Assembly (NCBI GenBank): GCA_030537765.1
Contig: JAUNVH010000003.1
Location: 1-64,000 of the forward strand
Direction of reading: 5' to 3'
Length of the DNA stretch: 64,000 nucleotides
Source: Tissierellia bacterium
GTDB taxonomy: Bacteria; Bacillota; Clostridia; Tissierellales; Peptoniphilaceae
The notes beneath the pieces were generated by a model. It was not told the DNA's origin. It ran no database searches and saw nothing but the letters and a program-made list of their open reading frames with translations. This document shows, piece by piece, positions 28,726 through 56,961 of the stretch. Position 1 is the first letter of the stretch; each line of letters starts with the position of its first letter. The translations under genes were made by a program, and so were the position numbers.

Positions 28726-29286
28726 TTAAATGCACAGTTTTTCATAATACATCATAAATTTTTCGACTGGAAAGCCTATTATATTTTTATAACTTCCTTC
28801 TATATTTGCAACAAATTTAGAGGCTTCACCTTGAATTGCATATGAGCCAGCTTTGTCATATGGTTCATTGGTCTTTAAATATCTCTCCAAATCTTTTTTA
28901 TCTATTTTTTTAAATCTAACTTTCGATACATCGTAATCTATAATTTTAATATTCTTTTCTAAATTGACAATTGCAAAAGCAGTTATGACCTTATGTTTAT
29001 TATCACTTAAACTAGTTAGCATATTATAGGCATCGTCGTAATCTTTTGGTTTACCCAATATCTTGCCTTTATTTATCACTATTGTATCTGCTCCAATCGT
29101 ATAATGCATTGGATAGTTAATAGCTACTGCAATTGCCTTTTCAAAAGCCAAACTCATACAGTTGACAATAGGTGATTTTTCTAAATCAATAGTCTCTTTC
29201 GTTTTCTCTGTTATAATTTTATAATCAGTAATAAATTCATCTAAAATTTCTTTTCTCCTAGGAGATTTTGAAGCAAGTATTATCAT
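28726..29286 (-). CDS. maf: Maf-type nucleoside triphosphate pyrophosphatase
   Basis: Hydrolyses non-canonical or specific pyrimidine nucleoside triphosphates (dTTP/UTP type) and is linked to septum control. The 186-residue protein starts MIILASKSPRRKEIL, the family N-terminus with the SxRR substrate loop, and contains IGADTIV and YDKAGSYAIQG, the two other signatures. The Gx-transporter gene ends 1 base into its start codon. Confidence 0.94.
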   Translation of the reverse strand: MIILASKSPRRKEILDEFITDYKIITEKTKETIDLEKSPIVNCMSLAFEKAIAVAINYPMHYTIGADTIVINKGKILGKPKDYDDAYNMLTSLSDNKHKVITAFAIVNLEKNIKIIDYDVSKVRFKKIDKKDLERYLKTNEPYDKAGSYAIQGEASKFVANIEGSYKNIIGFPVEKFMMYYEKLCI

Positions 29287-29807
29287 TAAACACCTCTAAA
29301 ATTATTTGTAAGCTTTAATTTTTGAATCACTAATTCAGAAGTCTTTCCAACAAAAATTCCAGTAATTATACCTATAAGTACCAAAAATGGTAAATAAATG
29401 AACATTTTTATATTATTAATTATAATAGCTGATACGCCAATTTGTGCGATATTGTGAAAAGTTGAACCTATTATGCTGATTCCAATTAAAGAAAATATTT
29501 GATTAAAATATTTTAAAGCCAAAGCCATAGCCAAAGAGCTGAATAATGCTCCGCTAAAGCTGTATATAAATCCTGATACATTTCCACTCATCAGCATAAG
29601 TATTAAGCTTTTTAATAAAGACACAATTATCCCTTCTTTTAGACCAAATAGTACCAATGTAACTAAAACTACCATATTTGATAGCCCCAGTCTGGCCCCA
29701 GGGACAGGAATTGGAATTGGTATACTATTTTCTAAAAGTCCAACAGTTGCACCTATTGTAGAAAGTAGCGCTAATAAGACTAATCTTTTATTATCGTTTA
29801 TTTGCAT
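29286..29807 (-). CDS. Gx transporter family protein (heptaprenyl diphosphate synthase component I-like)
   Basis: A 173-residue polytopic membrane protein (about five hydrophobic segments). The conserved PIPIPVPGARLGLSNMV near 31-47 matches the Gx transporter family, whose members are annotated as HepS component I but look like ECF-type substrate-binding (S) components. The likely role is membrane transport of a small molecule, possibly an isoprenoid or vitamin precursor; this is not settled. In Clostridia it regularly sits next to the NusG-II protein and often beside rnf genes, as here. Confidence 0.82.
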   Translation of the reverse strand: MQINDNKRLVLLALLSTIGATVGLLENSIPIPIPVPGARLGLSNMVVLVTLVLFGLKEGIIVSLLKSLILMLMSGNVSGFIYSFSGALFSSLAMALALKYFNQIFSLIGISIIGSTFHNIAQIGVSAIIINNIKMFIYLPFLVLIGIITGIFVGKTSELVIQKLKLTNNFRGV

Positions 29808-29808
29808 A

Positions 29809-30198
29809 TCAATTCACCGCATCTATTTCTGTATAACCAGAATCTGTTTTTATCTCGATTATAAATCTATTTGGAAGACAAACAATCATTTCTCCAGGCT
29901 TGTCAATATAGCCCATCTTTACATCCGTTTTATCTGGGCAGCTGGCCTTTATCGTCCTTATTCCTTTATCTTCAATCAAAACTATATTATAGCCATATTG
30001 AGAATCAAATCTTATTTCTTTTCCAATATATTCTTTATCTTTAAAATTAAGTTTTTTTACTTCTTTGCCATCAATTTGTATGCTTGCATATACTTCACCA
30101 TTATTGTTTAAGCTAGGCAATAAAAATTTTATATAATATATTGAAGCTAAACAGATTGCAATTATTGAAATTATTAAAATGATATCGCCCTTTTTCAT
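29809..30198 (-). CDS. NusG domain II-containing membrane-anchored protein
   Basis: A 129-residue protein with one N-terminal membrane segment (about 6-26) and an extracytoplasmic beta domain of the NusG-II type (YIGKEIRFDSQYGYNIVLI, IRTIKASCPDKTDVKMGYI, ending in ICLPNRFIIEI-like sequence). The CP-D motif is the family hallmark. Function is unknown; it is strongly associated with Rnf and the Gx transporter. GGAGG 5 bases before the ATG at 30198 sets the start; an ATG four codons earlier overlaps this site. First gene of the long envelope operon. Confidence 0.82.
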   Translation of the reverse strand: MKKGDIILIISIIAICLASIYYIKFLLPSLNNNGEVYASIQIDGKEVKKLNFKDKEYIGKEIRFDSQYGYNIVLIEDKGIRTIKASCPDKTDVKMGYIDKPGEMIVCLPNRFIIEIKTDSGYTEIDAVN

Positions 30199-30220
30199 TT
30201 TATCCTCCATTAACTAATTA

Positions 30221-30229
30221 ATTATATCA
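30221..30229 (-). promoter_or_regulatory. Extended -10 promoter of the NusG-II/Gx/maf/radC/mre operon
   Basis: TGATATAAT on the minus strand, between the Rnf operon terminator and the first gene. No good -35 is visible. About 23 bases separate it from the start codon. Confidence 0.6.
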
Positions 30230-30270
30230 TATATCGCAATCTATTAACTACCATAAAAGAAGAATTATGA

Positions 30271-30303
30271 AAAAGAAAAGGTCGGCTATAATAAGGCCGA
30301 CCT
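30271..30303 (-). terminator. Intrinsic terminator of the rnf operon
   Basis: AGGTCGGC / GCCGACCT, perfect 8-bp GC-rich stem with a 9-base loop, followed by TTTCTTTTTC on the minus strand. Confidence 0.88.
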
Positions 30304-30308
30304 AAATT

Positions 30309-31328
30309 CTAATTAACTTTTTCTTTTTCAGGTGCTTTAGTTTCAGTACGCTCTGTCTTTACTTCTTTTGCTTTGACATCTTTAACGTCTTTAGATTGAG
30401 TATCTTTTGATTTTTCAGCATCTTCTTTAACTGCCGCTTTTTCTGCCGCTGCTTTTTCAGCTTCAGCTTTTAACTTGGCTTCTTCTTTCTTTTTCTTCTC
30501 GCGTTCTTTACGCTTTCTTTCTCTTTCTTCAGCCTTTTCACGATACTCTGCAAAGATTGCTTTTGTAGGACAAGCTACTACACATTGTCCACAATTAATA
30601 CATTTTTCATAGTCGATCTTTGCCAAATTATTTTTGACATGGATAGCGTCAAATTTACATGCTCTTTCGCAAAGTTTGCATGCTATACAAGAAATAGTAC
30701 AGACTTTTCTAGAAACTTTACCTGGATCTTTCGATTTACATGCTACGGCTGTTCGTGCTTTATATGGCACTAAATCAATAATTCTTTTAGGGCATATATC
30801 TATGCATTTCATACAAGCTACGCATTTTTCTTTATCTACTATTGCAACTCCATCTATAACATGTATTGCATCGTAATCACAAACTTTAACGCAACTTGCT
30901 CCGCCCAAACATCCATAGCTACAAGCTTTTTGACCATCAGATACTAAGGCCATAGCTCGACAATCTTGAATTCCTTCGTATTTAAATTTATCTTTAGCTT
31001 TTGAACAACTGCCTTGGCACATTACCATTGCGACATTTCTAGTCATTTCTCCGGCATCTACACCCATTATTTGAGCTATTGCATCTGCACATTCTTGTCC
31101 GCCTATTGGACAAGCATTTACAGCTGCTTCGCCCTTTGCAATCGCATTAGCAAGACCTTCACATCCTGGGAAACCACAGGCTCCGCAGTTAGCACCAGGT
31201 AGTGCATCTAATACTTCTACGACTTTTTTATCTAAAGCAACTGCAAATTTTCTAGATGCAAAATCGAGTAATAGTCCGAAAGCAAGTCCTAATGCGCCAA
31301 GCACTACAATTGGTATAATATATTGCAT
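30309..31328 (-). CDS. rnfB: Rnf complex subunit B (electron-carrying iron-sulfur protein)
   Basis: Takes electrons from reduced ferredoxin in the ion-pumping ferredoxin:NAD+ oxidoreductase. Residues 1-25 form a membrane anchor; the N-terminal [4Fe-4S] cluster uses C48, C51, C56 and C73 (GANCGACGFPGC). Further cysteine sets, including ferredoxin repeats, follow (KCVACMKCIDICP, CTISCIACKLCERAC, KCINCGQCVVACP). After about residue 262 comes an unusual ~78-residue tail made mainly of Lys, Glu, Ala and Arg. It is the last gene of rnfCDGEAB, ending at a terminator. Confidence 0.96.
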   Translation of the reverse strand: MQYIIPIVVLGALGLAFGLLLDFASRKFAVALDKKVVEVLDALPGANCGACGFPGCEGLANAIAKGEAAVNACPIGGQECADAIAQIMGVDAGEMTRNVAMVMCQGSCSKAKDKFKYEGIQDCRAMALVSDGQKACSYGCLGGASCVKVCDYDAIHVIDGVAIVDKEKCVACMKCIDICPKRIIDLVPYKARTAVACKSKDPGKVSRKVCTISCIACKLCERACKFDAIHVKNNLAKIDYEKCINCGQCVVACPTKAIFAEYREKAEERERKRKEREKKKKEEAKLKAEAEKAAAEKAAVKEDAEKSKDTQSKDVKDVKAKEVKTERTETKAPEKEKVN

Positions 31329-31339
31329 ATTCTAACCTC

Positions 31340-31915
31340 CTATGCCATTCCAGCAAAGCCTGAAAAAGCTATTGCCATCAAACCGGCGCTTATAAGTGCT
31401 ATTGGAATGCCTTCTAACGCTTTTGGTACATCTGCCAATTCTAATCGCTCTCTAAGTGCTGCTAATAAGTATAGAGCAATAAAGAAGCCTATAGCCGCGC
31501 CCAAGCCACTGAATATAGTTTCTATGGGGCCATAACCTTCCTCAACGTTTAAAACTGCCACACCTAATACGGCACAGTTTGTAGTTATAAGTGGTAGAAA
31601 CACTCCCATTGCGCTATAAAGTGCAGGCGCCATTTTTTTAATCGCCATCTCAACTAATTGAACTAGTGATGCTATTACTAATATAAATACTATTGTTCTC
31701 AAATATTCAATATCAAAATATACCAATACATATTTGTTTAATGCCCAAGTTATTATTGACGAAAGCACCATAACAAAAGTAACGGCAAGACCCATTCCTG
31801 TAGCGGTTTCAGTTTTGCTTGAAACGCCAAAGAAAGGACAAATACCTAAGAATTTTGAGAGTACATAGTTGTTGACAAAAATTGTCGAAACTAAAATTTT
31901 AAATATTGTGCTCAT
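31340..31915 (-). CDS. rnfA: Rnf complex subunit A
   Basis: A 191-residue integral membrane subunit with about six membrane helices. NNYVLSKFLGICPFFGVS near 16-33 and LITTNCAVLGVAV near 109-121 are the paired half-repeat motifs with cysteines that hold an intramembrane iron-sulfur centre between RnfA and RnfE. It couples electron flow to sodium or proton transport. The gene stands between rnfE and rnfB with gaps of 11 bases each. Confidence 0.96.
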   Translation of the reverse strand: MSTIFKILVSTIFVNNYVLSKFLGICPFFGVSSKTETATGMGLAVTFVMVLSSIITWALNKYVLVYFDIEYLRTIVFILVIASLVQLVEMAIKKMAPALYSAMGVFLPLITTNCAVLGVAVLNVEEGYGPIETIFSGLGAAIGFFIALYLLAALRERLELADVPKALEGIPIALISAGLMAIAFSGFAGMA

Positions 31916-31926
31916 TATATCCCCCT

Positions 31927-32529
31927 TTATGCGTTCGCTGCTTTTTTGGCATTAATACTTTTAAATAGAGCAATAAAGAATCCTAGTAAAATAAATGCTC
32001 CAGGAGGTGCCTGCATCAATCCGATAGTTGGAATTGATTCTGGCAATATTTGAATGTCAAATATTGTTCCTGAACCCAAAAATTCTCTAACAATTCCCAT
32101 AAGCCCCATTGCAAAAGTTGCACCAACGCCATTTCCTAATCCGTCTACAATAGCCGGAACGATTTTATTTTTATATGCAAAGCTCTCAGCTCTTCCCAAG
32201 ATTGTACAGTTTACAACAATCAATGGCAAGAAAATTCCCAATGCATTATATATACTAATTGCATATGCTTCTAGTACCATTTGAACAATAGTTACGAAAG
32301 AAGCAATTATTACTATAAATATTGGTATTCTTATTTTTTCAGGTATTATATTCCTTAAAATAGAAACGACCAAATTACTCATAACCAAAACGAATATTAC
32401 TGCCATACCCATTGATAAAGCATTTTTAGTACTAGTTGTTACAGCTAAAACAGGACATAAACCTATAAGCTGTATAAATGCAGGGTTATTTTTAATAATA
32501 CCGTCGGTAAATATCTTAGATAATTTCAT
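31927..32529 (-). CDS. rnfE: Rnf complex subunit E
   Basis: A 200-residue homologue of RnfA in the opposite membrane orientation. KNNPAFIQLIGLCPVLAVT (14-32) and LIVVNCTILGRAES (103-116) carry the two conserved cysteines for the shared iron-sulfur centre. About six hydrophobic helices are visible. It is encoded between rnfG and rnfA, the usual order in Clostridia. Confidence 0.95.
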   Translation of the reverse strand: MKLSKIFTDGIIKNNPAFIQLIGLCPVLAVTTSTKNALSMGMAVIFVLVMSNLVVSILRNIIPEKIRIPIFIVIIASFVTIVQMVLEAYAISIYNALGIFLPLIVVNCTILGRAESFAYKNKIVPAIVDGLGNGVGATFAMGLMGIVREFLGSGTIFDIQILPESIPTIGLMQAPPGAFILLGFFIALFKSINAKKAANA

Positions 32530-32543
32530 TTTATACCCCCCTA

Positions 32544-33122
32544 CTAATTCGCAAAGAATTCATTGTAAGCAGAAATTACTTCATTTACTCCTCTTAGCAC
32601 AGCATTAGTAGATATTGTTGCTCCTGATATTGCCATAAATTCATCGTCTCCCGCGCCATCTGCAGTCGCCTTTAGCTCTGTGTTAGCGGATTTTCCTTGG
32701 AAGACTTCATAAAATTCAGGCGTAGTAATCCTATCTCCAAATCCTGGAGTCTCTGTATGTGCTAAGTTTCTAAATCCTACAATTTCTCCTTCGGTATTAA
32801 TTATTAATGCATTATCCATCTTTCCATCGTATCCAGATGATAAAACATTAAATACATAACCGACGATTTCTCCATTTTTTGTAGCTGTCATGACTTTATG
32901 AACATTAGGATACTTTTCTGAAATACTGTTCATAGTTTCTGCATCTAAATCTTCAAAATTATCAGCACCATCACCATATATTTCAGTATATTTTGCTAAG
33001 CTCGCGATTCTAGCGTTTTCATCTATAATAGGTTTCGTGACTGAATGAATTGCACTTAGCAATCCTCCGGCGATCGCAGCAATAACTAACAAAGTGACAG
33101 CAGTTTTTATTGTCTCTTTCAT
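32544..33122 (-). CDS. rnfG: Rnf complex subunit G (covalent FMN protein)
   Basis: A 192-residue protein anchored by one N-terminal helix (about 8-24), with an extracytoplasmic FMN-binding domain. The flavinylation motif SGATIS is at 166-171, where FMN is attached through a phosphoester bond to the threonine (T169 most likely). The attachment needs an ApbE enzyme, and one is encoded elsewhere in this window. It overlaps rnfD by 4 bases. Confidence 0.95.
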   Translation of the reverse strand: MKETIKTAVTLLVIAAIAGGLLSAIHSVTKPIIDENARIASLAKYTEIYGDGADNFEDLDAETMNSISEKYPNVHKVMTATKNGEIVGYVFNVLSSGYDGKMDNALIINTEGEIVGFRNLAHTETPGFGDRITTPEFYEVFQGKSANTELKATADGAGDDEFMAISGATISTNAVLRGVNEVISAYNEFFAN

Positions 33123-34090
33123 TTCTTTACCTTGACCTCCCCGAATACCCTAGATTTCATAAATTTATCAATAGTTGGTGTAAATACATTCATAAGTAGA
33201 ATTGCATAAGATACACCTTCTGGCATTTGACCTTTTGTTCTAATTAAAGCTGTCAAAATTCCACAGCCCAAAGCAAATACTATTTTGCCTTGTTTCGTCA
33301 TTGGACTTGTAGCATAGTCTGTAGCCATAAAAATAGCTCCTAAGAAAAGTCCACCACCGAGTATTTCATATGGCATTAATGAAATATCAACACCTAATAG
33401 AGGCAATAGTATTGCGGTCGTAGCTATATAGATTACTGGAGTCTCCCAATCTATAACTTTTCGTATTATTAAGTACAACCCCCCGATTGCCAATAATATC
33501 GCTGATGTCTCTCCTATGACACCGCCAATATTTCCCATCGCCATATCAAAGATAGGCGGTAATTTCGCTTCAGTACCAGCTTTAATTAACTGCAAAGGTG
33601 TTGGTCCTGATAGTCCATCAGGACTGACATATGTACCCATAATTCTGGGCCATGATGCCATTAGCATTGCTCTTGCTCCTAAAGCAGGATTTATAAAATT
33701 AAAGCCAATGCCTCCAAAACATTCTTTTATCAAAATAATTGCACAGGCTGAACCAAAAACTGCCATCCATACAGGCGCATCTGCTGGCAAGTTGAATGCA
33801 AGCAAAATACCTGTAACAACTGCTGACAGATCCTTAATTCTAATTGGTTTTTTAAGAACTTTTTGAGTGAGTCCTTCAAATACTACACATGATAGTACGC
33901 ATGTCAATAATAATATAACTGCTTTTAATTTGAAAAAATATACACTGCCTATTATTGCAGGAATCAAAGCAATTATGACATCTAACATTAATTTTGTCGT
34001 AGTATTTGTATCTTTGATATGTGGACCCATGGAAATTCTTAAATCAGAACCCAGAATTTGGTTTTCTGTGTTTAATACTTTTTTCTCCAT
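33119..34090 (-). CDS. rnfD: Rnf complex subunit D (membrane FMN protein)
   Basis: A 323-residue membrane subunit with about ten hydrophobic segments. The covalent flavin site is SGPTPL at 161-166; T164 corresponds to the FMN-bearing threonine of the SGATPL motif in relatives, so this copy has Pro where Ala is more usual. NFINPALGARAML near 131-143 is another family block. It follows rnfC by 19 bases. Confidence 0.94.
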   Translation of the reverse strand: MEKKVLNTENQILGSDLRISMGPHIKDTNTTTKLMLDVIIALIPAIIGSVYFFKLKAVILLLTCVLSCVVFEGLTQKVLKKPIRIKDLSAVVTGILLAFNLPADAPVWMAVFGSACAIILIKECFGGIGFNFINPALGARAMLMASWPRIMGTYVSPDGLSGPTPLQLIKAGTEAKLPPIFDMAMGNIGGVIGETSAILLAIGGLYLIIRKVIDWETPVIYIATTAILLPLLGVDISLMPYEILGGGLFLGAIFMATDYATSPMTKQGKIVFALGCGILTALIRTKGQMPEGVSYAILLMNVFTPTIDKFMKSRVFGEVKVKK

Positions 34091-34109
34091 AGATTATATC
34101 CCCCCGAAC

Positions 34110-35432
34110 CTATTTATATCTCAATTTGATTTCTCTTATTGCTAATTTAATCGACTCAGTAAGCTTTCTCTTTGCCGGACATATAAAACTACATGATCCG
34201 CATAAGATACATTCGCTGGCATTTAATTCTTTTGCAATGTCGAATCTCTCTTTGCAAACTGCGGCATTTAAATCTGAAGGATTTAAATATGAAGGACAAA
34301 CTTCCAAGCATTTACAGCATTTAATACATGGACTTTCTTCGCCATCATCTAAATAGTCATCAGTTAAAACAGTAATGCCAGTTGTAGTTTTTAATATAGG
34401 CGCATCTAGATCAAAGACAGTATTTCCCGTCATCGGTCCGCCACATATAACTTTAGTAACATTTCCAACAAATCCACCGCACTCTTCAATTAGTGCACTG
34501 ATTGGAGTCCCTACTCTGGTCAATAGGTTCTTTGGAGTTTTCACTCCAGGACCTGATACAGTAACAATTCTCTGATAAAGTGGAACGCCTTTTGTCAAAG
34601 CTTCATATAATGCATATGCAGTACCTACATTAGTATTAAATACTGATACATCTGTAGTTCTTCCACCTACAGGAACTTTTCTTCCCGTTACTGAATCTAA
34701 GATTCTTGTTGAGTCTCCTTGCGGAAACTTTGTTTTCAAAGATGCAACACCGACATTATTAAGGCTTTCACATTCTTTTACAAGTTCGTCTATGGCCAAA
34801 GGTTTATTGTCCTCAACGCCAATATAGCCCACATTGCAATTTAGAATGTCTTTAATCAGTTCACAAGCCTTGCTAACACCTTCGGCTTGCTCAAGCATCA
34901 ATCTGTAGTCACATGTCAAAAATGGTTCACATTCTGCTCCATTTAAAATTACTGTGTCTACTTCGGCATTTTTCGCACTTCTAAGTTTTGCGTGTAGCGG
35001 GAAGCCCGCTCCGCCCATGCCAACAATTCCAGCTCTTTTCGCAACTTCAACTATCTCATCAAAACTGAGATCTTTGTAATTTGGAACCGGTACGATAGAT
35101 TCGTCAATCTCATCTAAACCATCAGATTCAATAGCAATGTTCATGGATTTCCATCCGTCTGCCGAATAACGTTCAGTTATCTCCTTGACTGTACCAGATA
35201 CGCTTGAATGAATGTCAGCGCTAAGCCCTGCTTCATTATGGCCTATCAATTGCCCGACTTTAACGTAATCTCCCTTTTTAACAATCGGTTCACACGGTGC
35301 CCCGACGTGTTGACTCATAGGGATGTATACGATCGAAGGAATCTGAGCATTAGTCACTGCAGCGCCCTCACTGAATTCTTTATATTCAGGAATATGAACT
35401 CCGCCTTTGAAAGTGAGATTGCTCATTTTCAT
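34110..35432 (-). CDS. rnfC: Rnf complex subunit C (NADH-binding)
   Basis: Peripheral subunit of 440 residues that passes electrons to NAD+. KAGD-like biotinyl-type beta region near the N-terminus, then the nucleotide/FMN-binding stretch with GIVGMGGAGFPLHAKL at about 132-147, an SLBB domain, and two [4Fe-4S] sets near the C-terminus (CIKCCKCLEVCP, then CILCGSCSFICP). First gene of rnfCDGEAB, with AGAGGTGGAG as a strong ribosome-binding site and an extended -10 promoter upstream. Confidence 0.96.
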   Translation of the reverse strand: MKMSNLTFKGGVHIPEYKEFSEGAAVTNAQIPSIVYIPMSQHVGAPCEPIVKKGDYVKVGQLIGHNEAGLSADIHSSVSGTVKEITERYSADGWKSMNIAIESDGLDEIDESIVPVPNYKDLSFDEIVEVAKRAGIVGMGGAGFPLHAKLRSAKNAEVDTVILNGAECEPFLTCDYRLMLEQAEGVSKACELIKDILNCNVGYIGVEDNKPLAIDELVKECESLNNVGVASLKTKFPQGDSTRILDSVTGRKVPVGGRTTDVSVFNTNVGTAYALYEALTKGVPLYQRIVTVSGPGVKTPKNLLTRVGTPISALIEECGGFVGNVTKVICGGPMTGNTVFDLDAPILKTTTGITVLTDDYLDDGEESPCIKCCKCLEVCPSYLNPSDLNAAVCKERFDIAKELNASECILCGSCSFICPAKRKLTESIKLAIREIKLRYK

Positions 35433-51744: not shown

Positions 51745-52929
51745 ATGTCAAAAACTATAGGAACCAGATCAATAGGTATAATTACGCCGATAATAAAACA
51801 AGGTGACGATTTAATTGAAATTTTAAAGAATTCTCTAATCGAAGCAGTTAACGAAAACAATATTGTCTTAAAAGACAAAGATATAATTGCGGTTACAGAA
51901 TCGCTTGTGGCAAGAGCTCAAGGCAATTATGCTACAATAGAACAAGTTGCAAAAGATATAAGAGAAAAGTTTCCAAATGATATTGGAATAGTATTCCCCA
52001 TACTTAGTAGGAATAGATTTTCAGTAGTATTAAGAGCTTTAGAATTAAGTGGAAGAAAGCTCAATATATTGCTAAGCTATCCCTCAGACGAAGTTGGAAA
52101 TGAATTGCTCGATATTGATAGATTATATGAATTAAAAATTAATCCATATTCAGATGTTTTATCTCTTGAGCAATATAGAGAATATTTCAAAGATTCTGCA
52201 GTCCATAAGTTCACTGGCGTCAATTATGTAGAACTATATAAAGATATAGTTGGAGATGATGGAAATATCATATTTGCAAATGATCCTAAAGAGATTTTAA
52301 AATATACTAAAGATATTTTAGTTTGCAATGTACACGAACGCGATAGAACATCTAAAATTTTAAAAGATAATGGTGCCAATATAGTATATAATTTGGGAGA
52401 TATACTTGCAGAAAGCGTAGATGGCAGCGGATATAATCCAGAATATGGGATAATGGGTTCAAATCTCAGCTCCGAAACTTCTATAAAGCTATTTCCAAGA
52501 GATGGACAAAAATTTGTTGAAGATTTACAAAAGACATTAAACGATCATTTCAATGTCCATTTAGAAGTTATGATATATGGCGATGGAGCATTTAAAGATC
52601 CAATTGGTCATATTTGGGAATTAGCAGATCCAGTCGTATCACCTGCTTATACTTCAGGACTTGAAGGCACACCTAATGAAATCAAGATAAAATATGTTGC
52701 AGATACAAGTCTCGCCAATTTAGATGCACAAGCCGCAACAAAGGCGATAAAAGAAAAAATCTTGAATAAAGAAATTCAATCTGCTGAAGAAAATGAACGT
52801 TTGGGAACTACGCCAAGAAGAATAACTGATTTACTTGGAAGCCTATGCGATTTGACTTCAGGCAGCGGCGATAAAGGAACACCTATGGTTCTAGTCCAAG
52901 GTTATTTTGATAATTTTGCAAGTGAATAA
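51745..52929 (+). CDS. Coenzyme F420-0:L-glutamate ligase family (CofE-like) protein
   Basis: A 394-residue soluble protein. The N-terminus (RSIGIITPIIKQGDDL ... LKDKDIIAVTESLVARAQGN) and the middle (LFPRDGQKFVEDLQKTL near 245-261, GDGAFKDPIGHIWELADP near 275-292) match the F420 ligase family, which adds glutamate to an acceptor using GTP in archaea and actinobacteria. The archaeal enzyme is about 250 residues; this one has about 100 extra, mainly in the stretch around 90-200. F420 is not expected in this kind of organism, so the real acceptor is unknown. It stands alone with its own promoter and terminator. Confidence 0.75.
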   Translation: MSKTIGTRSIGIITPIIKQGDDLIEILKNSLIEAVNENNIVLKDKDIIAVTESLVARAQGNYATIEQVAKDIREKFPNDIGIVFPILSRNRFSVVLRALELSGRKLNILLSYPSDEVGNELLDIDRLYELKINPYSDVLSLEQYREYFKDSAVHKFTGVNYVELYKDIVGDDGNIIFANDPKEILKYTKDILVCNVHERDRTSKILKDNGANIVYNLGDILAESVDGSGYNPEYGIMGSNLSSETSIKLFPRDGQKFVEDLQKTLNDHFNVHLEVMIYGDGAFKDPIGHIWELADPVVSPAYTSGLEGTPNEIKIKYVADTSLANLDAQAATKAIKEKILNKEIQSAEENERLGTTPRRITDLLGSLCDLTSGSGDKGTPMVLVQGYFDNFASE

Positions 52930-52935
52930 TATATT

Positions 52936-52970
52936 AGATGCCCGAAGATTTAATCTTCGGGCATCTTTTC
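52936..52970 (+). terminator. Intrinsic terminator of the CofE-like gene
   Basis: A perfect 13-bp stem (52936-52948 with 52954-52966), 5-base loop, then TTTTC. The convergent ABC permease gene ends inside it. On the minus strand the following sequence is less T-rich, so it works best for the plus strand. Confidence 0.85.
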
Positions 52971-54554
52971 TATTTCTTTTTTAAATCCAAATTTTAAACA
53001 TAATAAGAATATTACTAAATTTATAAAAACTGCTAAAGATTTTAAATAAAAAATCTCTGTCGTCAATACACGATAATTTATAACAGATAAAATTATTAAT
53101 GATATAATTAAGAATCCATATATTCCAAAAAATCCAGATCTCCTAGTCTGATTCCCCTGCAATCTTATATTAAAAGGCTGAGATTTAAAAGCAATTCTCA
53201 TGCTCAAGATCATTAATATTCCCATTTGAAAAATTGAGATAATAAATAAAGCTATATCAATTTTTTGTCCTAAAAAATAGATTATTATATTTAAAAGTAA
53301 AAATGCGGGCATTGCTATTAAAATAAAATAGGCTTTGAAAGTCCCCTTTAAAATTTTACTATCTTCATCATTCTTTCCAATATAATAGAGCCATTTCGGA
53401 AAACCTTGTGTAGAATATCTCAAAGTTAATATTGCCAAGCTAGACATCATTATGAAAACTGGATAAAACATCATTTTGCTCATCATAGGATTCAATTGCA
53501 TATTATCTTTGTTTTTTAACAAATTTATTATTGGAAAAATCAAACCTAATGTAATTTGTGTCAAAAGATTAGATAATATTAGTCTATCTTTTAAGATATA
53601 AGACCATGCCACATGAAAAAAAGCTCTTTCTTTTCCTTTTTTCGTAAATAATTTTGCAAATAAATATTTAAAACCTATAATTTTTCTCTTTTTAATAGAA
53701 GATCTATCTAATAAAATTTTTGATTCAATCGAATTTTTAGACTTGATATAATAATATACTAAAAATATTGGGGCGATTATAGAAATAATTATCAGGATAA
53801 TATTTAATAATGAATAATTGTTCTCTAAGATTAGTTCATAAATTCCAGAAAACCAAGCATTAGGAAATAGGCACAAAAAATAATTCCAATCCATTATATT
53901 TATATTATTACCAATCGATCCAAGTATTTGATAGACTACAATAAAGCCTATAGTTAATACGGATTGTATAAATGTCAAAATATCTTTTGCATATTCTTTA
54001 TTAAATTTTTTAAACGCATAATTATATATTGCTGAAATTAGTCCGAGCCAAAGCATAATTATTAATACGAGATTTACTATTGCAATAAGCCCAAAGATTA
54101 TTCCAAATTTTTTTATTCCAATCAATAATAAAGGAATTATCGCAACAATGCAATGTGTTATTATCGAATGCAAAATCGTATATATATTATATGCTTTATA
54201 AGTCATAGGGCTTACAGCTTTTGACATTATAATATTCTTATCACTCGAATCTAATACTTGTAGCTGATAAAATTGGGCCACCAAATTCATTGTATAAATA
54301 ATAATAAAGAAATTAGAAACAAACATTATTTGCATAAGACTTGTCCCTAAAAATAGTGGCACCATCATAAATAGTCCAAATATTATATCAGGCAAATAGT
54401 TTAAAAATTTAATATATGCATATTTTACAAGACCTGCTTTAAAGTATTTTTCATTATTCAAATATAATTTTATTAATGCACTTAGTTTGTTCTGTTGTAA
54501 ACCACTCTTTACTAATGGATTTGTCAGATAATAAAATATTCTATTCATATTCAT
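52950..54554 (-). CDS. ABC exporter permease (12-helix type)
   Basis: A 534-residue membrane protein with roughly 12 hydrophobic segments, no soluble domain of size. The arrangement NNLVAQFYQL-type loops and the late RYSTQGFPKWLYYIGKN segment resemble the large permeases found beside single ATPases in Firmicutes. It overlaps the ATPase gene by 14 bases, so the two form one transporter; substrate unknown (lipid, antibiotic or peptide export are options). It is the last gene of the apbE operon. Confidence 0.8.
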   Translation of the reverse strand: MNMNRIFYYLTNPLVKSGLQQNKLSALIKLYLNNEKYFKAGLVKYAYIKFLNYLPDIIFGLFMMVPLFLGTSLMQIMFVSNFFIIIYTMNLVAQFYQLQVLDSSDKNIIMSKAVSPMTYKAYNIYTILHSIITHCIVAIIPLLLIGIKKFGIIFGLIAIVNLVLIIMLWLGLISAIYNYAFKKFNKEYAKDILTFIQSVLTIGFIVVYQILGSIGNNINIMDWNYFLCLFPNAWFSGIYELILENNYSLLNIILIIISIIAPIFLVYYYIKSKNSIESKILLDRSSIKKRKIIGFKYLFAKLFTKKGKERAFFHVAWSYILKDRLILSNLLTQITLGLIFPIINLLKNKDNMQLNPMMSKMMFYPVFIMMSSLAILTLRYSTQGFPKWLYYIGKNDEDSKILKGTFKAYFILIAMPAFLLLNIIIYFLGQKIDIALFIISIFQMGILMILSMRIAFKSQPFNIRLQGNQTRRSGFFGIYGFLIISLIILSVINYRVLTTEIFYLKSLAVFINLVIFLLCLKFGFKKEIEKMPED

Positions 54555-55338
54555 TAGTCACATCGCCTTTAATTAATTGCACAAATTTAACAGCGTCTCC
54601 CATCTTATTGCTTTGACCCGTCTTTTCGATATAAAAATTTTCAAGCGATATATTTTCATCTGCTCTCAATTCTTCAATAGGCGCATCTGCAACTAATCTG
54701 CCTTTGTCTAAAATTATAATTCGAGAACTTAGCTTTTCTACAATTTCCATAATATGTGATGAATAAAATATTGTCATGCCAGAGTCTTTTAAAAGTTTTA
54801 GTACATCTCTCATTAGCATTACAGAATTAGTATCCATTCCATTAAAAGGTTCGTCCATAAATAAAATCTGAGGATCGTTTATTAAAGCAGCAATGATAGC
54901 AACTTTTTGTTTCATTCCCTTAGAATAAGTTGAGAGTCTATCATCAAATTTATTTATATCTAATTCTAAAAGTTCGGCTAATTTATGAATTTTTACTTCA
55001 TTGCTTTCATAATCCATTTCATTCATTTCGAGTACGAATGTTAAGTATTCAATTGCAGTCAATTGTTCGATTAGAATTTCAGTTTCAGGAATATATCCAA
55101 TTTTTGATTTATATTGATAATTATCTTTAATATCTTCTCCAAAAATTTTAACTGTGCCTGAATAATCATCAATTAAATTTAATAAAATTTTAGTTGTGGT
55201 TGATTTTCCTGCTCCATTTGGTCCTATATATCCAATTAATTCTCCTCGATATACATCAAAACTAATATCTTTAAGTACTTCACTTTCTCCAAAGGATTTA
55301 CTCAAATTAGATATTTCTATAATTTTTTCTTTGGTCAT
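54541..55338 (-). CDS. ABC transporter ATP-binding protein
   Basis: A 265-residue ATPase of the ABC-2/drug-export type. Walker A GPNGAGKST at about 38-46, the Q-loop in IGYIPETEILIEQLTAIEYL, the LSTYSKGMKQKVAII signature near 138-152, Walker B ILFMDEPFNGMD, then H-loop SSH. A ~45-residue acidic tail is typical of this exporter class. The start is set by AGGAG before the ATG and lies inside the preceding membrane-protein gene. Confidence 0.92.
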   Translation of the reverse strand: MTKEKIIEISNLSKSFGESEVLKDISFDVYRGELIGYIGPNGAGKSTTTKILLNLIDDYSGTVKIFGEDIKDNYQYKSKIGYIPETEILIEQLTAIEYLTFVLEMNEMDYESNEVKIHKLAELLELDINKFDDRLSTYSKGMKQKVAIIAALINDPQILFMDEPFNGMDTNSVMLMRDVLKLLKDSGMTIFYSSHIMEIVEKLSSRIIILDKGRLVADAPIEELRADENISLENFYIEKTGQSNKMGDAVKFVQLIKGDVTNEYE

Positions 55339-55864
55339 TTAATTCTCCTTTAGATCTCATCTGCTCATAAATTCTTCGTTGTCTGATCTTTCTCTTTTTA
55401 ATAATATTTCGTCTTTTTGTCATTGCACCAATTCCGATTAGAATTCCAGGTAACAATATTGATATTATAAAAAATGGCAAATTTAATTTAATATTGAAAA
55501 TACTTAATACTAAAAATATGGGCGCCAGATAAAGATCTAATAGAAATTTTGAAATTTCTGAGCCGATAGCGACTTCAAAAATTTTTGATCCAGTTCCAAT
55601 CTTTGCAATCATAAAAAAGAGTACGCCAAATATTGCTATTATAAATCCATATAAAAAATCTGTTATCGGTTTTTTTCTTATCCTCATTGTCTTTCCGACT
55701 AAAAAATATAATACAAAAATTATAAGGCAGACTATTAATTTAAATAATATATTATCTAGTGTAATATTGTTTTCATAAAAATAGCTGAATACTTTTAATA
55801 ATAATACTGTGATTGCAATATTTATAATATGGCCCATTAAGGCTTTTAAATTATTTAAAATCAT
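55307..55864 (-). CDS. Membrane protein of unknown function in the apbE/ABC operon
   Basis: A 185-residue protein that I do not recognise. About five hydrophobic segments are visible (about 8-28, 37-57, 69-88, 103-125, 128-146), followed by a very basic cytoplasmic tail (MTKRRNIIKKRKIRQRRIY near 148-166). It lies between apbE (start codon abuts it) and the ABC ATPase gene (32-base overlap), so translation is likely coupled to both. It could be a third component or regulator of the exporter, or an acceptor-handling partner for ApbE. No motif supports a choice. Confidence 0.7.
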   Translation of the reverse strand: MILNNLKALMGHIINIAITVLLLKVFSYFYENNITLDNILFKLIVCLIIFVLYFLVGKTMRIRKKPITDFLYGFIIAIFGVLFFMIAKIGTGSKIFEVAIGSEISKFLLDLYLAPIFLVLSIFNIKLNLPFFIISILLPGILIGIGAMTKRRNIIKKRKIRQRRIYEQMRSKGELNDQRKNYRNI

Positions 55865-56961
55865 TATTTTCCCCCTGAAGCACCTTGAGATTTTAATAAA
55901 GTTTTCAAACCATCAGTAAATTCTATATTATCGTCCTCAAATACCCAAAGCGCCTCCAAATCATCATAACTTTCAACTAATTTCCTGCCTTCTTCATAGG
56001 GCATTAAGAATATAGCAGTAGACATAAAATCAGCAAATCCAGAATCAGGATGAATTATAGAAACTGAACTGAAATAATCGCCCGGCCAAAGTGTATCTTT
56101 ATCAATCAAATGATGAAATCTTCTTCCATCAATATCAATATATCTTTGATAGTCCCCACTTGTAACTACGCATGTATCATTTGCAAAGACTATATCCACA
56201 AAATCTGGAATATCAGGATTTTCATCATAATTTGCTTTTTTGGGATTTCTGATTGCAACGCCCCATTTTTGTCTCATATTATCTAAGGGCTTTCCTATAA
56301 TTTTTACATTACCTCCAGCACTTATAATGCCCGATTCTAATCCCATATCGACTAACTCATTTGCAATTATTTCTGTGGCATAGCCTTTTGCAATTGCACC
56401 CAAATCGATCTGCGTATCATTATTATTAATAAAAATTGTTGAATCTTTTTTATTCAGTACTAAATTTTTAATGCCTGTAAATCTATCTGCCTCTTTTAGA
56501 ATCTCTTTTGTGGGTAAATGCTTTGAATCTGCAGGAATCTCTCCATCTTCAACCTCATCTCTCCAATCCGACCAGATATTTAATACTTTACCCATCGAAA
56601 TATCTGTTTCATCTGAATAATCATTATAGTACTTAATTGATAGTTCAATCAGATCAAATAAATCTTTTTCCACTTTAACTGGTTTTATTCCAGCATTTTT
56701 ATTGATTGTTTTTACATTATTTATATTCTCATATTCATTATATTTGTCATAATACTTGTGTAATTCATGAAATCTCTTCTCTGCGTATTCAAAATATTTA
56801 TCTGCATCTTTTTCAGAAGCTGTATAAACTGTTATATCTATAATTGTATCGAAGGTATTAAAAAATGAATATTTAAATTTATGATATACTGTGCTATCTG
56901 AGCAAGCTGATAGAAATATCGCTATTAATATAATTGTGATTACTAATTTATTTTTCTTCAT
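55864..56961 (-). CDS. apbE: FAD:protein FMN transferase (ApbE), lipoprotein
   Basis: Attaches FMN to threonine of target proteins outside the cell membrane. 365 residues with a lipoprotein signal: lipobox LSAC, Cys 20. FNTFDTIIDITVYT near 33-46, then NKNAGIKPVKV, IDLGAIAKGYATE near 187-199, SGIISAGGNVKIIGKPL and the metal/FAD-binding TSGDYQRY and HHLIDKDTLWPG are the family landmarks in order. RnfD and RnfG in this window have the flavin-acceptor motifs, so this enzyme is a likely modifier of the Rnf complex, though the operon joins it to an ABC exporter. Confidence 0.95.
   Translation of the reverse strand: MKKNKLVITIILIAIFLSACSDSTVYHKFKYSFFNTFDTIIDITVYTASEKDADKYFEYAEKRFHELHKYYDKYNEYENINNVKTINKNAGIKPVKVEKDLFDLIELSIKYYNDYSDETDISMGKVLNIWSDWRDEVEDGEIPADSKHLPTKEILKEADRFTGIKNLVLNKKDSTIFINNNDTQIDLGAIAKGYATEIIANELVDMGLESGIISAGGNVKIIGKPLDNMRQKWGVAIRNPKKANYDENPDIPDFVDIVFANDTCVVTSGDYQRYIDIDGRRFHHLIDKDTLWPGDYFSSVSIIHPDSGFADFMSTAIFLMPYEEGRKLVESYDDLEALWVFEDDNIEFTDGLKTLLKSQGASGGK

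Follow-up and report, generated by a model that had tools for sequence, protein, structure and literature searches.

An apbE-linked small membrane protein of Peptoniphilaceae and a probably independent ABC cassette in the same operon

The question raised by this locus is whether four overlapping genes form a single unit for flavinylation outside the cytosol. The window, the whole stretch of DNA analyzed, comprises 64,000 nucleotides of a Tissierellia bacterium of the family Peptoniphilaceae (GenBank assembly GCA_030537765.1, contig JAUNVH010000003.1), and the operon occupies its minus strand from 56961 to 52950. The genes encode ApbE (55864-56961), a flavin adenine dinucleotide (FAD):protein flavin mononucleotide (FMN) transferase and predicted lipoprotein; P185 (55307-55864), a small, 185-residue membrane protein that belongs to no named family; and the ATPase (54541-55338) and permease (52950-54554) of an ATP-binding cassette (ABC) transporter. 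An earlier note on this DNA described the genes as overlapping or abutting, and consecutive genes do overlap head to tail, by 1, 32 and 14 nt; because of these overlaps the four are probably co-transcribed and co-translated. The note went on to treat apbE, the unknown membrane protein and the ABC exporter as one unit. That proposal is supported in part: P185 is tied to apbE in relatives, but these lend no support to the ABC pair as a member of the same unit. On balance, we favor two modules: a flavinylation pair in which P185 would be the membrane partner of ApbE, and an optional ABC cassette that would be independent of it.

Two modules in one operon

The pairing of P185 with apbE was followed in 130 genomes of the family, which is Peptoniphilaceae on the evidence of its named records, a strong P185 match being one with E ≤ 1e-5. 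Strong matches occur in 48 of these genomes, and in 47 of the 48 P185 is the gene immediately 3′ of apbE, in the same orientation; the one other match begins at a contig edge. The count of 48 is a lower bound, since a divergent copy beside apbE in genome G142 surfaced only on reading the locus. Five further family matches (0.001-0.01), none beside apbE, were treated as chance.

The ABC pair does not share this distribution. A homologous permease is found in 8 of the 130 genomes and stands beside apbE-P185 in only two, that of the window (G000) and G035, which belongs to another genus. Both share with G037 and G150 the order apbE-P185, then a convergent gene resembling F420-0:gamma-glutamyl ligase, with ftsE nearby. 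The ABC pair lies between P185 and the ligase-like gene in G000 and G035, whereas in G037 and G150 there is no open reading frame of 60 aa or more in that interval and hence no ABC pair. On the evidence of the relatives, the ABC pair was rejected as part of a flavinylation unit. The earlier note itself counted separation of the four genes in close relatives against its proposal, and separation is largely what is seen. The ApbE proteins of the four genomes group together in a tree (98/98), with the second ApbE of G035 included, and the tree does not resolve gain from loss of the ABC pair. The gene for that second ApbE (L075) has no P185 beside it, and its product is closest in the tree to the P185-linked ApbE of the same genome (92/94).

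In the proposed mechanism, a lipid-anchored ApbE outside the membrane would take FMN from FAD and attach it to RnfG and further proteins that bind FMN. P185 would position or serve ApbE at the membrane surface, with an outer hairpin facing ApbE and a basic tail on the cytosolic side. FAD would most likely reach ApbE via an EetB-family energy-coupling factor (ECF) component encoded at the Rnf operon. The ATPase and permease would form an ABC cassette, probably an exporter of unrelated cargo, that sits in the operon in this lineage and is missing in some relatives. A more specific proposal would make P185 a flavin-channeling subunit of a kind not yet described, dedicated to ApbE in Peptoniphilaceae and some of their relatives, which docks the enzyme at the membrane and hands over the FAD delivered by EetB; this strikes us as rather unlikely.

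The ABC cassette

Its sequence identifies the ATPase with certainty as an ABC ATPase (PF00005, 5.7e-29), of the ABC-2/ABCA/DrrA/NosF-like type. NCBIfam matches are to GldA/DrrA-like models, below the cut-offs of those models, and the structures matched are those of ABCA and NosF; PADLOC matches were taken as generic ABC similarity. The permease was assigned from its hydropathy and from the homologous ATPase alongside it in relatives. The 12 helices of the earlier description are plausible, but the hydropathy plot shows 11 peaks, and a structure model from a two-sequence alignment (pLDDT, the model's predicted local confidence, of 34) is unusable. Scanning 14 permease members gave no Pfam or NCBIfam family and two single weak matches, and the permease profile matched no solved structure at E ≤ 1. 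A plasmid search returned one weak partial match to the permease, and the ABC pair matched no ECF family over cut-off.

In a set of 101 relatives, the permease is present in 21, own genome included, and all 20 of the other genomes matched (20/20) have a homologous ATPase gene next to it. The 1.5-kb flanks of the permease loci in those 20 genomes yielded no apbE; in G035 the flank ends inside P185, with apbE just beyond. The neighbors of 14 permease loci that were read include no steady partner.

These distributions bear on whether the four genes might act jointly, with the ABC pair exporting FAD or a flavinylated product. Such joint action would suit the overlapping genes, the same gene order in another genus (G035) and the placement of the G000 and G035 permeases as sisters (94/90 support, with caution over long branches). 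It is harder to reconcile with the empty equivalent site in G037 and G150, the presence of the pair next to apbE-P185 in no more than 2 of the 130 family genomes, the pairs elsewhere without apbE within 1.5 kb, and an EetB-family gene that is already a candidate for FAD export. We consider joint function very unlikely, and the ABC pair probably does not serve as a dedicated exporter of flavin.

The permease is separated from the convergent ligase-like gene (51745-52929, plus strand; PF01996) by a perfect, terminator-like 14-bp inverted repeat (52936-52966) that overlaps the permease end. It was found by a repeat scan that returned two sites against 1.2 expected in shuffled sequences, both being this repeat, one per strand. 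A promoter scan, with 39 sites against 33.3 expected, was uninformative.

Features of P185

P185 had been noted as an unrecognized five-helix protein with a strongly basic tail. It remains without a family name: among 26 members scanned no fitting Pfam or NCBIfam family was found, isolated weak matches being judged chance (Pfam best 0.00065 and NCBIfam best 0.00054, one member each; PHROG 0.0033), and the plasmid search gave no P185 match. The basic tail is real, with a net charge of +12 over residues 150-185; apbE-linked family members average +8 (41 rows), with one acidic exception, L015, that comes from a partial row. The helix count stands only in part. Five hydrophobic segments are seen in the hydropathy plot, but an AlphaFold model from nine sequences (pLDDT 86.4) has four long helices (2-31, 39-58, 66-94 and 129-171) and a broken hairpin at 104-122 where the fifth span would be. 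The net charge of loop 57-68 is +5 and that of each of the other two loops is -1. Because of the positive-inside rule, these loop and tail charges would place both termini of the modeled protein in the cytosol, the hairpin outside and the basic tail inside. The most conserved positions in the 41 apbE-linked rows are N4, N5, Y53, K58, P115 and P139 (weighted conservation 0.83-0.96). One relative (L015 1498-3030, in G033) carries a highly charged C-terminal extension of ∼340 residues past the last membrane helix.

Fold comparison does not single out a known protein. Foldseek returned 0 matches at E ≤ 0.001, and VIA placed a chain of the human BOS complex first (Z 6.5), followed by HrtB/LolCDE/FtsX-type chains (4.3-4.7), all of these Z scores lying within the common-arrangement range of the tool. 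Against solved structures, the P185 profile reached E 0.2 at best, for a potassium-transporting ATPase subunit. P185 was also considered as a heme-bearing or flavinylated electron carrier, an idea rejected for the lack of histidine pairs and of a flavinylation motif. The [ST]GA[ST] motif occurs in 0 of 61 family members, and a single histidine column is conserved above 30% (31 of 41 linked rows), with no conserved pair; apbE-linked cytochromes presumably use pairs of heme-ligand histidines.

ApbE, its likely acceptors and the supply of FAD

ApbE is, in its predicted activity, certainly a standard flavin transferase. It matches PF02424 at 5.4e-63 (213.4 bits against a cut-off of 25.6) and solved ApbE structures at 3.6e-32 at best, and its conserved stretches align with those of 7esa and 1vrm. 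The lipobox is LSAC, and all 12 rows of the alignment share its Cys20; signal peptide and lipobox were called by inspection of the sequence. ApbE has a single match in its own genome assembly (97.6% completeness).

This genome has four FMN_bind loci that encode likely acceptors: RnfG, an NqrC-like protein and two small proteins. Three of the four have the strict [ST]GA[ST] motif, the exception being the NqrC-like protein, which carries AGAT in its place. With its FMN-binding domain (PF04205) and SGAT at residue 166, RnfG is a likely substrate as predicted from its sequence. Other probable targets are RnfD and subunits of Nqr; in RnfD, a search for a looser version of the flavinylation motif gave no match. 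The Nqr and most Rnf gene names were assigned by recognizing the sequences.

The Rnf operon (29286-35432, minus strand) encodes both the likely substrate complex of ApbE and its own candidate FAD-export component. The genes rnfB, A, E, G, D and C (30309-35432) were recognized from their translations; RnfG contains PF04205, and RnfB contains ferredoxin domains. Directly after rnfB come a NusG_II domain gene (29809-30210; PF07009, 2.9e-28) and then, at the operon end, a gene for an EetB-family ECF substrate component (29286-29807; PF07456, 2.2e-40), all on the same strand. The NusG_II protein is called EetA-like on our assumption that EetA itself has this domain.

Listeria EetB, also a PF07456 protein, is a FAD-binding ECF component needed for flavinylation in the absence of external FAD (PMC9973259). 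By homology, the EetB-family gene of the window is a candidate for FAD export. How FAD gets to extracytosolic ApbE is called obscure in a 2025 review (PMC12052999). PF07456 is found in 125 of the 130 family genomes: 47 of the 48 P185-positive ones have it, as do 78 of the other 82; the one P185-positive genome with no match is G150, which is 64% complete. Because the EetB family is so widely present, the ABC pair need not be invoked for flavin export, though it may have that role. The supply of FAD across the membrane, which the earlier note suggested for the four-gene combination, is better ascribed to the EetB-family gene that closes the Rnf operon.

P185 itself might move FAD, or help deliver it, to ApbE, in parallel with EetB or in support of it. 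Its tight pairing with apbE could be read this way, and Listeria EetB likewise came to notice as a membrane protein with no assigned role in a locus of the apbE type (PMC9973259). However, the EetB family is distributed as above in P185-positive and other family genomes, and a profile comparison does not connect P185 with EetB (hhalign probability 0.3%; PF07456 is absent from the Pfam matches of P185). Moreover, its four long helices have no significant fold match, which is still compatible with a transporter. Such a transport role is unlikely in our judgment. P185 as a replacement for EetB was rejected, because P185-positive genomes should then lack EetB, yet 47 of 48 have it.

Beyond the family and alongside pgpA

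P185 matches extend across the order (71 of 249 genomes, including the 48 family members) and into a sample of the phylum (7 of 299, two of them from the family). Directly 5′ of P185, apbE is also found in two outside-family genomes of the same other family, G245 and G248, both with an FMN_bind gene within ∼6 kb. Outside-family proteins form one group in the P185 tree, except for two rows judged chance matches, and this group also holds a divergent family member, G015 (long branch), and the linked proteins of G245 and G248. Because these linked proteins lie in the outside group, the tree shows the apbE-P185 pairing in two of its parts. Among named ApbE loci, P185 is the next gene in the 8 of 80 that carry it, most of them from the same assemblies as the family sample. 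The parts of the open-access literature consulted, including PMC8238504, describe no P185-like protein and no comparable apbE/ABC operon.

In G248 and G245 (L119 and L120), apbE-P185 is flanked by a lipoprotein-like gene on one side and by a sugar-type ABC importer, which includes Peripla_BP_4, on the other; one of the two lipoprotein-like genes was scanned and had no Pfam match. Other P185-like proteins of the order (L020, L023, L025-L027, L029 and L114-L118) mostly have shorter basic tails, and the stretches read around them hold no apbE and no steady neighbor.

Several observations weigh against the two-module reading. ApbE is found in 129 of the 130 family genomes, and 81 of them have apbE with no strong P185 match; because of these, P185 must be dispensable for flavinylation in general. 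Only 2 of the 18 outside-family P185-like loci read (from 17 genomes, some ending at contig ends) have apbE alongside, and the role of the P185 family may be broader than ApbE. The ABC pair is kept with apbE-P185 in two genera despite permeases that are 28% identical, which may indicate a functional tie. Finally, 18 of the 20 family loci sampled have pgpA no more than 1.5 kb from P185, and P185 may have a lipid-related role.

This last association, together with P185-like proteins of other families that are encoded apart from apbE, would fit a P185 that acts with PgpA in lipid or envelope metabolism and is adjacent to apbE through operon history only. In most of the sampled family loci (L007-L033, the same 18 of 20), the genes 3′ of apbE-P185 include pgpA, often accompanied by a gene that is nuclease-like, QueT-like or hydrogenase-like or that encodes a thioredoxin-like 2Fe-2S ferredoxin. 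P185 nevertheless stays with apbE where pgpA has no match. A tblastn search (E ≤ 1e-3) found no pgpA in the whole window or in the 5.5-17 kb around P185 in G035, G037, G150, G015, G142, G248 and G245, and apbE remains beside P185 in those stretches. Because apbE stays where pgpA is absent, the apbE link outlasts the pgpA link, which slightly lowers the case for a lipid role, one that we hold to be quite unlikely.

The occurrence of P185 after apbE in many genera of one family provides a direct, testable lead on FAD delivery or ApbE anchoring. The locus also warns against taking the ABC transporter of this operon for a flavin exporter.

Comparison with known systems

The Listeria extracellular electron transfer locus (PMC9973259) includes FmnB, an ApbE homologue, and EetB/FmnA, an ECF FAD exporter. 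It has in common with the window an ApbE and an uncharacterized small membrane protein, and both pose the question of flavin delivery to ApbE; the window too has an EetB-family gene. In contrast, P185 and EetB show no relation at the profile level, the ABC pair matches no ECF family over cut-off, and the EetB-family gene of the window lies ∼26 kb off, in the Rnf operon. The apbE-linked membrane cytochromes (DUF4405-like; PMC11334425) are likewise membrane proteins found through apbE linkage. P185 differs from them in its single conserved histidine column (31/41) and in the absence of DUF4405 from its Pfam matches. The third comparison is with ABC-2-like ATPase/permease pairs in other genomes of the order. 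These have neither apbE nor P185 within their 1.5-kb flanks, except for P185 in G035, where apbE lies just beyond, yet both of their genes are homologous to those of the pair in the window.

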